Assembly (NCBI GenBank): GCA_012031975.1
Contig: JAAUSA010000034.1
Coordinates: forward strand, 1 to 32,363
Direction of reading: 5' to 3'
DNA length: 32,363 bases
DNA from: Alkalinema sp. RU_4_3
GTDB taxonomy: Bacteria; Cyanobacteriota; Cyanobacteriia; Leptolyngbyales; Leptolyngbyaceae
The stretch's first letter is position 1, and each line of letters opens with the position of its first letter. Of this stretch, positions 8,401 to 28,942 are shown piece by piece. Both the position numbers and the translations under genes were made by a program. Below the pieces are notes generated by a model. The model worked only from the letters and a program-made list of their open reading frames with translations. It was not told where the DNA came from and searched no databases.

Positions 8401-10197
8401 ATGCGAAGCTACTACTGCGGCGATGTCCGATCAGCCCAAATTGGAGAAACCGTCACCCTCTACGGTTGGGTCGATCGCCGACGCGATCATGGCTTTGTGA
8501 TCTTTTTAGACCTGCGCGATCGCACCGGGACGGTCCAGGTGGTCAGTGACCCCGATCGCACCCCGAAATCGCACCCCGTGGCCGAAGGCGTCCGCAACGA
8601 GTACGTGATCAAAGTCGTGGGCCGCGTCTCAAAACGCCCTGACGAATCCCTTAACCCGAAACTCGCCACCGGGGAAATCGAAGTCTACGCCGAGGAGATC
8701 GAACTGCTGAGCGCGGTCCGGAAACAACTGCCCTTCCAGGTTTCGCTCTCGGATACTGAGACCGTTAAAGAAGAGCTGCGGATGAAGTATCGCTATCTGG
8801 ACCTGCGGCGCGATCGCATGAGCAAAAACCTCCAGCTTCGCCATAGCGTTGTTAAAGCAGCGCGGCGTTTCCTGGAAGACGACGAGAACTTCATCGAGGT
8901 CGAAACGCCGATTCTCACCAAGTCCACCCCGGAAGGCGCGCGGGACTATATCCTGCCATCGCGGGTCAACCCAAGCGAGTGGTACGCCTTGCCCCAATCG
9001 CCGCAGTTGTTTAAGCAGCTTTTGATGGTGTCGGGGTTTGATCGCTACTACCAAGTCGCGCGATGCTTCCGGGATGAGGATCTGCGGGCCGATCGCCAGC
9101 CAGAGTTCACCCAGCTCGATATGGAGATGAGCTTCCTGTCCCAGGAGGAGATCCTGGACCTGAACGAACGGTTGCTCTGTCATATTGTGAAAGCGGTGAA
9201 GGGTGTTGATCTGCCCAGACCTTTCCCTCGCCTGACCTACAAAGAAGCCATGGATCGCTACGGCTGTGACAAACCCGACACTCGCTACGGCATGGAGTTA
9301 GTCGATCTGTCAGACGTGCTGCAAAACTCCGGGTTTAAGGTCTTCACCGACGCCGTGGCCCGAGGTGGCATCATCAAGGTTTTGCCGGTTCCTGGTGGAA
9401 ACGACGCCATCTCCAATGTGCGGATCAAGCCCGGCGGTGACCTGTTTAAGGAGGCCAGCGAAGCGGGTGCAAGGGGTTTGGCCTACATTCGGGTGCGGGA
9501 GAATGGCGAGATTGACACGATCGGCGCGATCAAAGACAACCTGACCGAGGACCAAAAGGCGGAAATCCTCAAACGCACCCAGGCAAAAGCTGGCGATCTG
9601 CTGTTGTTTGGGGCTGCCGACGCGCCGACGGTGAACAAGACCCTCGATCGCCTCCGTCAAGTGATCGCCCGCGAACTCAAGCTGGTGGACGAAACCAAAA
9701 TGAACCTGCTGTGGGTTGTCGAGTTCCCGATGTTTGAATGGAATGCTGACGAGAAGCGCTTTGAGGCCCTGCACCATCCGTTTACTCGGCCCTACAACGA
9801 GGACGCGGGGGACCTGACGACGGCCCGTGCCCAAGCCTACGATATTGTTCTGAACGGCTTTGAGATTGGCGGTGGCAGTCTGCGGATCCATGAGCCGGAG
9901 TTGCAGGCCAAGGTGTTTGAAACGATCGGTTTGTCCGATGAGGAGGCTAACAGCAAGTTTGGGTTCCTGCTTGAAGCCTTTGAGTATGGTGCGCCGCCCC
10001 ATGGGGGATTGGCCCTGGGGCTCGATCGACTGGTGATGCTGCTGGCGGGTGAGGAGTCGATTCGGGATACGATCGCGTTTCCGAAGACGCAGCAGGCGCG
10101 TTGTGTGTTGACGAGTGCGCCGTCGGGGGTGGATGAGAAGCAGTTGAAGGAGTTGCAGGTGGCTTCGACCTATCGGCCTAAGGTGAAGGAGGATTAG
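8401..10197 (+). CDS. aspS: Aspartyl-tRNA synthetase, bacterial type, probably non-discriminating
   Basis: Class IIb aminoacyl-tRNA synthetase of 598 residues, the normal length of bacterial AspRS. It has an N-terminal OB-fold anticodon-binding domain (1-105), a catalytic core starting with motif 1 FIEVETPIL (164-172), motif 2 [20 protein letters not shown] (221-240), an inserted bacterial GAD domain (about 300-420) and motif 3 [14 protein letters not shown] (535-548). In the OB fold the sequence [10 protein letters not shown] carries His at position 30, where discriminating enzymes have Leu. This suggests an enzyme that also charges tRNA-Asn with aspartate for amidation by GatCAB, as is usual in cyanobacteria; that is inference. 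It begins 64 bases after the glucosyltransferase. A structured repeat follows 13 bases after the stop, in the gap shared with convergent cobS. Confidence 0.98.
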
Positions 10198-10210
10198 TCA
10201 CTGCGCTGTT

Positions 10211-10365
10211 GGCCCGCCTAGGGTTAAAACCCGAGGCTAATAGCTAAAACCAGCTAAAGCAGGTTGGAAGAATAGAAGTTAGCCCTCAAATACCTAGCAT
10301 TCAGGGGGTTAACCCGTTTCAACGGGTTTGAGCTGTTAGCCTGGGATTTTAATCCCAGGTGGGCC
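10211..10365 (+). repeat. Dispersed multi-hairpin repeat, copy 1 (downstream of aspS)
   Basis: About 155 bases sharing two long conserved blocks with a second copy at 13201-13361 in the same orientation. It contains four hairpins: GCCTAGGGTTAAAACCCGAG and its flank (10216-10242), AACCAGCTAAAGCAGGTT (10248-10265), AACCCGTTTCAACGGGTT (10311-10328), and CCTGGGATTTTAATCCCAGG (10340-10359). The ends GGCCC (10211-10215) and GGGCC (10361-10365) are complementary and could close the whole structure. The first 50-base block differs from the other copy at one base. It sits between convergent aspS and cobS and could serve as a transcription end for both. Its identity as a mobile miniature element or an RNA structure is not known. 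Confidence 0.85.
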
Positions 10366-10418
10366 ATGTGATCGTCGGTTAGCGCGGGTTGTCCAGGCGC
10401 GCAGTGACAAGTTTTCTT

Positions 10419-12032: not shown

Positions 12033-13190
<1,158 letters not shown>

Positions 13191-13200
13191 ACCGCAGAGA

Positions 13201-13361
13201 CCTATTAGCCTAGGGTTAAAACCCGAGGCTAATAGGTAAAACCAGCTAAAGCAGGTTAGGAGTACAATCAAATACCTAACAACATTACAACCCAGAAGCA
13301 CAACCCGTTTCAACGGGTTTAAGCTGTTAGCCTGGGGTTTTAACCCCAGGTGGGTTGTGCG
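13201..13361 (+). repeat. Dispersed multi-hairpin repeat, copy 2 (downstream of tgt)
   Basis: Second copy of the element at 10211-10365. Hairpin 1 is a 36-base palindrome (13201-13236) beginning CCTATTAGCC and ending GGCTAATAGG, with one internal mismatch. Hairpin 2 is AACCAGCTAAAGCAGGTT (13240-13257). Hairpin 3 is AACCCGTTTCAACGGGTT (13302-13319). Hairpin 4 is CCTGGGGTTTTAACCCCAGG (13331-13350). Compared with copy 1, hairpin 4 has a G-C pair (13337/13344) where copy 1 has A-T (10346/10353), so pairing is kept by a compensatory change. CACAACCC (13299-13306) can alternatively pair with GGGTTGTG (13352-13359). It lies between the co-directional tgt and prfC genes. Confidence 0.85.
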
Positions 13362-23442: not shown

Positions 23443-23480
23443 GCTGAACGCGGAAAACGCTTTCTGATTCCGCCTTCAGC
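23443..23480. repeat. Inverted repeat upstream of the DUF362 gene
   Basis: GCTGAACGCGGAA (23443-23455) and TTCCGCCTTCAGC (23468-23480) are complementary at 12 of 13 positions with a 12-base loop. The flanking GAAGTAGGA and the wording GCTGAA..TTCCGCCTTC recur at 27037-27094, suggesting a dispersed short palindromic element. Confidence 0.6.
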
Positions 23481-23516
23481 GTTCCGCATTCACCCTTTAG
23501 TATGGCGGATTGCCCC

Positions 23517-27018: not shown

Positions 27019-27036
27019 ATGCCTATTTTCTGAAAA

Positions 27037-27094
27037 GATGAAGTATGAAGTAGGAACGCTGAAAATTTTCCGCCTTCCGCCTTCATCCTTCATC
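27037..27094. repeat. Inverted repeat before the GT2 gene
   Basis: GATGAAGTATGAAG (27037-27050) pairs with CTTCATCCTTCATC (27081-27094) at 13 of 14 positions, with a 30-base loop containing GCTGAAAATTTTCCGCCTTC. It resembles the element at 23443-23480 in wording. Such GAAGTAGGA/CTTCATCC palindromes are common between genes in many cyanobacteria. Confidence 0.65.
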
Positions 27095-27109
27095 CTTTCC
27101 CCCAACCCC

Positions 27110-28139: not shown

Positions 28140-28528
28140 GGGGCTGTAACGGTTTCGACAGGTTGGCGAACGTTACATTGTGATGCAGGTCGAGAGTGAG
28201 TCTACTCTCGTTAATCAAGGCTCAAAAACATAGATGCAAACAACATCGTTTCCTTTGCTCGTAAAGCTGCCCCTGTGGCTGCTTAGTCCAAAACCTTAAC
28301 TTAGGTTCGAGCACGTATGACCCGACTCCGTTAAAGGACATACGCACTAATTAACGCGATGCTATCCAGTGAGTTTCTTTAGTTGTAACTGGGCCAAGAT
28401 TTAATTAAAGAATCCCCTTCACCGGGACAATGGTGAGTTCCCGTTCTGAGGATTAGATGAACTAAGCCTGTGAATGAGTGGTGTATTAATACCCAGTTTG
28501 GACACGGGTTCGACTCCCGTCAGCTCCA
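28140..28528 (+). ncRNA. ssrA: Transfer-messenger RNA (tmRNA)
   Basis: One-piece tmRNA of about 389 bases that rescues stalled ribosomes together with SmpB. The tRNA-like ends are clear: 5' GGGGCTGTAACGGTTTCGAC and 3' GGGTTCGACTCCCGTCAGCT, with GGGGCTG pairing to CAGCTCC and a T-loop GGTTCGACTCC. The resume codon GCA at 28236 opens an internal tag reading frame to the TAG at 28284-28286, encoding ANNIVSFARKAAPVAA, nearly identical to known cyanobacterial tags. The 3' CCA is not encoded (the DNA reads ACT after the acceptor stem), so it must be added after transcription. Promoter and terminator flank it closely. Confidence 0.97.
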
Positions 28529-28546
28529 CTAATCAACCTTAAGGTG

Positions 28547-28578: not shown

Positions 28579-28681
28579 AATACTCCGGACATTTTGTGAT
28601 GAGAGCAATACTCCGGACATTTTGTGATGAGAGGAAACAAGGACTAGACAAAATGAAGTGATCCCCAAAGACTAGACAAAA
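28579..28681 (+). repeat. Paired direct repeats behind ssrA, resembling a solo transposon end
   Basis: A 27-base unit beginning AATACTCCGGACATTTTGTG occurs identically at 28579-28605 and 28607-28633 (period 28). A second unit, GACTAGACAAAA, occurs at 28642-28653 and 28670-28681, also with period 28. All four contain GACA followed by an A- or T-tract. Multiple short direct repeats of this sort are found at the ends of some insertion sequences (for example the IS21 family). No transposase gene or matching opposite end is in the window, so this would be a remnant. Confidence 0.6.
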
Positions 28682-28750: not shown

Positions 28751-28942
28751 AAGATTTAAGCGATCACCGATCAACCCTGTCCTGCAACCCATCACAAGTC
28801 ACCAACCCAATTCGCCAACAGAATCATTCATTCGCGGTGCGTTTAGGCAGCAACGATTAGCGCCCAAATCACGGGGTGATCTGATCGCCGCGCGTATTGT
28901 CCTGCAAAGCTTTCAGCTCACCGTTCCTCTGTTCTAGCAACC

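Follow-up and report, generated by a model that had tools for sequence, protein, structure and literature searches.

Small dispersed repeats (SDRs) of cyanobacteria are reportedly mobile, intergenic units of 21-27 nt (ascribed to Elhai and colleagues, 2008, as cited in PMC3733652), against about 150 nt for the element described here, a distinction drawn by size. REPINs or BIMEs, the doublets of REP sequences (PMC3116915), share with this element their inverted palindromic units, their intergenic location, their alternative rod and clover folds, and the rarity of singlets; they differ in having one hairpin per half, where the present element has two, in a core of about 125-165 nt. In further contrast to REPINs, no GTAG tag was noticed here, the own genome has no Y1 transposase, and DDE-type terminal repeats enclose the core in at least one lineage. 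The GTAG-12, GTAG-15 and GTAG-16 REPs (PMC3733652) are likewise palindromic dimers in filamentous cyanobacteria, those of GTAG-15 being nested in larger palindromes; they are set apart, by description, through their GTAG tag and their single short hairpins. Bacterial and cyanobacterial MITEs, such as Nezha and those of Anabaena sp. 90 (PMC3542288; both compared by description), resemble the element in being short and gene-less, with terminal inverted repeats and many intergenic copies, and in Pseudanabaena the resemblance extends to TA-bounded copies. What differs from MITEs is the interior, four covarying hairpins common to elements with unrelated ends; moreover, no autonomous partner carrying the ends of the own genome was found.

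The window, a stretch of 32,363 nt from Alkalinema sp. RU_4_3 (contig JAAUSA010000034.1), holds two copies of this element (Table 1), which are probably (with a probability of about 0.7) decayed copies of a cyanobacteria-wide, non-autonomous, MITE- or REPIN-like element with a conserved DNA-hairpin core; its mobility is evident in one genus, Pseudanabaena, and we infer it for the own genome. This four-hairpin structural repeat, very widespread among cyanobacteria, is apparently undescribed, since no curated Rfam family fits (a search that included permissive thresholds returned chance-level matches alone) and, in the libraries searched, neither the hairpin sequences nor GGACTTACGCA led to a relevant paper.

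The preliminary description had placed two copies behind aspS and tgt, each with four hairpins, a 50-nt block that differs at a single base, a conserved 3' block, a diverged middle part, and, in hairpin 4, an A-T pair of copy 1 exchanged for G-C in copy 2. All of this is correct: both copies are real, the 50-nt block lies at 10216-10265 and 13208-13257, the 3' block is 89% identical over 62 nt, and the four separate hairpins are upheld by comparison with other genera. Copy 1 lies directly 3' of the aspS stop codon (10195-10197), between the converging genes aspS and cobS (the latter on the opposite strand), and copy 2 lies 3' of the tgt stop codon, which ends at 13190, between the same-strand genes tgt and prfC; the gene names are confirmed by NCBIfam. 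Both copies fold much more favorably than 200 dinucleotide shuffles, with z of -8.2 and -7.9 for copies 1 and 2, the preferred fold being one long rod for copy 1 alone and separate hairpins for copy 2. The single rod is ruled out as the conserved fold; in other genera hairpin 1 has often lost its complementarity to hairpin 4, and hairpin 2 to hairpin 3, which settles the fold as four separate hairpins. Both window copies have lost the terminal repeats and lack target duplications. The shoulder corresponding to that of copy 1 reads CCACTGCGCTGCTG in most of the aligned copies of the own genome.

Table 1. Features of the element in the window (R1, covariance model of the core; its E-values are rough).
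Feature	Position	Strand	Remark
5' shoulder of copy 1 (TCACTGCGCTGTTGG)	10198..10212	+	part of longer element; starts right after aspS stop
Copy 1, four-hairpin core	10213..10363	+	R1 match, 134 bits, E 1.5e-29
Copy 1 outer stem, 5' side CCCG	10213..10216	+	helix 1; pairs with 10360-10363 TGGG
Copy 1 hairpin 1	10217..10236	+	helix 2
Copy 1 middle stem, 5' side CTAATAGC	10237..10244	+	helix 3; pairs with 10332-10339 GCTGTTAG
Copy 1 hairpin 2 (AACCAGC TAAA GCAGGTT)	10248..10265	+	helix 4
Copy 1 variable spacer	10266..10310	+	length and sequence differ among aligned copies
Copy 1 hairpin 3 (AACCCGT TTCA ACGGGTT)	10311..10328	+	helix 5
Copy 1 hairpin 4	10340..10359	+	helix 6; contains A10346-T10353
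Copy 1 3' shoulder (CATGTGATCGTCGGTTAGC ... GCGCAGTGAC)	10364..10407	+	common to other copies; terminal repeat ATTCTGTTGGCGAATT missing here
Copy 2, four-hairpin core	13209..13354	+	between tgt and prfC; R1 match, 109 bits, E 1.1e-23
Copy 2 hairpins	13209-13228, 13240-13257, 13302-13319, 13331-13350	+	5' outer stem lost; carries G13337-C13344
Solitary terminal-repeat arm (AATTCGCCAACAGAATCATTCATTCGCGG)	28808..28836	-	piece of ATTCTGTTGGCGAATT near tmRNA, without partner or core

A search of the own assembly (5.25 Mb, 362 contigs) finds the element at approximately 40 distinct places, the copies being about 155-240 nt long, intergenic and without coding capacity; several are cut off by the end of a contig, as is usual for repeats. 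Their alignment shows free variation in the spacer that separates hairpin 2 from hairpin 3, and conservation of the two stems and all four hairpins. Many copies reach outward into nested inverted repeats, namely the shoulder CACTGCGCTG followed by the terminal repeat ATTCTGTTGGCGAATT, and beyond it into further palindromic arms, the widest pair being 18 nt long and separated by 374 nt. With one mismatch allowed, ATTCTGTTGGCGAATT has 31 near-exact sites in the own genome and 0 in the control; it occurs also in genus g15, and ATTCTGTTGGCGAATT ends are found in genome G034. At one locus (L079, 1380-1800) the concentric outer repeats of the own-genome element surround an interior that is different and measures about 97 nt. 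In four own-genome copies (L006, L018, L023 and L031) the loop of hairpin 4 is inverted (TAAA, not TTTA) on an unchanged stem.

Across other genera and families the order of helices is identical and the sequences differ: outer stem, hairpin 1, middle stem, hairpin 2, spacer, hairpin 3, middle stem, hairpin 4, outer stem. The fold is dyad-symmetric, made of two halves in inverted orientation with a pair of hairpins in each, and this four-hairpin shape is shared though sequence and outer ends vary by lineage. R1 (42 pairs, built without the elements of the G003 type) matches 150 of the 390 genomes of the class, corresponding to 75 of 160 genera, and about 114 of the 150 reach E 1e-10 or better on its rough scale. 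The exact pattern of the right half occurs in at least 85 stretches of an 85,000-species collection; all matches listed are cyanobacterial and nearly all sit within a full four-hairpin element. Plasmids yielded just two partial matches. Of the cells in the wider alignment 93.1% pair; 36 of the 42 pairs show two-sided changes, and the covariation score is 0.560 (0.193+-0.005 when shuffled, at most 0.097 with partners slid). These counts are inflated, as the alignment had been fitted to the model and includes most elements twice, once per strand; the unfitted seed alignment has 20 pairs with two-sided changes and a score of 0.318, against 0.164+-0.014 shuffled. The loops carry a signature of their own, TNAA for hairpins 1 and 2, TTNA for hairpins 3 and 4, the same rule resulting from either strand; it is obeyed in 447 of 457 scorable loops, the other 10 being inverted (the search pattern itself partly determines hairpin 3). 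Two elements of G003, L096 and L098, have a further palindrome (GGCTTTGCC TTCCCGAAGGG) inserted in the loop of hairpin 2.

The evidence for mobility comes from Pseudanabaena (genus g41), where eight 148-bp elements of the genome G142 carry the core inside 12-bp AGGACTTACGCA ends (perfect, since they were searched for exactly) and are all flanked by t and a. Over G142, G105 and G017, 17 of the 18 AGGACTTACGCA-bounded elements have t to the left and a to the right, as expected from TA duplication. The same ends bound an 896-bp element in G142 which encodes pieces of a broken IS701-family transposase (fragments missed by Pfam and assigned to IS701 by NCBIfam), as well as other short elements in which the core is absent (L327-L332). 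One site is clean, being occupied in G105 (L295), with ATACAT on both sides of the element, and empty in G178 and G225 (L294, L296; GTAA-ATACAT-AATAAAGG). In other lineages the same core lies within other inverted ends (CTGRTTGACTGACAAA, AACCTGAGTTCGA, GGTGTCAACTTA, ATTCTGTTGGCGAATT); either the ends may have been exchanged or the core may have been captured repeatedly. Near-identical mobile copies are found in one genome (G142), and the use of terminal inverted repeats elsewhere rests on fewer copies. The suggestion of the preliminary description that the element is MITE-like is thereby supported: it is short, non-coding and present in high copy number, it has terminal inverted repeats, and its relatives include near-identical TA-bounded copies and one clean presence/absence site with the ATACAT repeat. 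Two further arrangements were noted, an insert of about 3 kb at an orthologous element site in G178 (L301) and a GGTGTCAACTTA-bounded element that occupies the precise centre of another perfect palindrome (GTAGGGGTAAAGCAAGAGCTTCATT and its complement; L113 in G296).

The second part of that suggestion, a structural RNA such as a 3' end stabiliser or terminator, is not supported as regards a strand-specific RNA. Hairpins at gene 3' ends could stop transcription or protect the mRNA, with selection on the RNA fold producing the covariation; indeed the copies are intergenic (10 of 117 are genic, where about 84% are expected, gene calls being ORF-based) and often lie 0-30 nt past a stop codon, cyanobacteria are devoid of Rho, and the 3' ends of Synechococcus elongatus are mostly unexplained (PMC13289151). 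At seven Pseudanabaena sites, moreover, 25 of 28 element-free orthologues have another strong hairpin in the gap (z of -2.8 or lower against mononucleotide shuffles), several of them terminator-like. In the own genome G.U pairs outnumber A.C mismatches by 21 to 4, an excess stemming largely from few positions common to all copies and counted with hairpin 2 one position off register. However, beside tandem genes 30 copies lie in the same and 29 in the opposite orientation, and on the transcribed strand of 56 tandem copies 55 G.U against 42 A.C is not a significant excess (p 0.22). Both strands match R1 with similar scores, the element being nearly its own mirror image, and neither window copy contains a terminator-like site or the U-run which, together with a GC-rich hairpin, marks an intrinsic terminator. 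With neither a strand preference nor an excess of G.U over A.C, selection on an RNA strand is not supported and explains the pattern poorly; a symmetric DNA structure fits it, and, as the strand tests show no bias toward the transcribed strand, the fold would act, or be maintained, as DNA. A palindrome does form a hairpin in either direction, so that a bidirectional role is conceivable, yet a structured RNA as such we consider quite improbable. The observation proposed in the preliminary description in support of a structured element, numerous copies at gene 3' ends whose pairs covary, was made; here it is no proof of RNA function, and the element illustrates that strong covariation need not mean one.

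Very doubtful, too, is the reading as a REPIN whose hairpins are recognised, and which is mobilised, by a tyrosine transposase of the Y1 (RAYT) type. The dyad symmetry, with R1 matching either strand, does correspond to two inverted REP units that choose between rod and clover, as in REPINs (PMC3116915), and Y1_Tnp is present in 135 of 150 element-positive against 145 of 240 element-negative genomes (odds ratio 5.9), an association that genome size confounds and could explain. PF01797, however, has no match in the own genome (G000) nor in 14 other carriers (15 of 150), which tells against RAYT as the mobiliser; inspection of the alignments by eye showed no GTAG/CGTC tag like that of known REP families, and the near-identical G142 copies end at IS701-type terminal repeats. 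A neutral persistence of the fold, in which template switching during replication repairs one arm of the palindrome from the other and the core has no function, is improbable as well, even though both its mechanism and its footprint, loop inversion, are published (PMC8794818). Its traces are present: orthologous hairpins differ by loop inversion (TTGA in L251, TCAA in L260; TGAA and TTCA in L298), as does an unrelated hairpin (TTT and AAA), L325 is a template-switch-like chimera, and L337, L265 and L071, the one such case in the own genome, have collapsed to single hairpins. Most orthologous sites, a point against the mobile reading, are not clean insertions but have differing flanks and another hairpin, which in some cases is terminator-like and in others is the one remaining hairpin of the element (L265, L269). 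Loop inversions are nevertheless too rare, at 10 of 457 scorable loops, to be the main maintainer of the fold and are ruled out as such; interstrand switching would scramble the loop polarity, and the order of the four hairpins is kept across 75 genera. Arm-to-arm copying happens, yet it cannot account for everything, as is clear from the conserved polarity of the loops.

For the favored reading, a non-autonomous mobile element that has decayed in the window, the unit would be the dyad-symmetric core, consisting of the four hairpins with the middle and outer stem and often lying within further terminal inverted repeats, and transposases encoded by insertion sequences resident in the genome would cut the ends in trans, those in Pseudanabaena probably being of the IS701 type. 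The four hairpins may act as DNA, in cruciforms or as single-stranded hairpins, and may either assist in transposition, and so in the spread of the element, or render it harmless or even useful at gene ends. It is conceivable, if unlikely, that the core is an independent conserved DNA module, captured repeatedly by elements with unrelated ends because its extruded TNAA/TTNA hairpins would be read by a protein or form a direction-free barrier to transcription at gene ends. The element offers a test bed for the working of gene ends in a phylum that lacks Rho, and for the question why mobile elements with unrelated ends share a hairpin core.

Elsewhere in the window, two tandem 28-nt copies of AATACTCCGGACATTTTGTGATGAGAGS with one difference (28579-28634) lie just past the tmRNA gene (28140-28531), and at 27032-27099 and 23468-23498 there are an imperfect palindrome and, related to it, a TTCCGCCTTC... 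repeat, which resemble the short tandem repeats of cyanobacteria.
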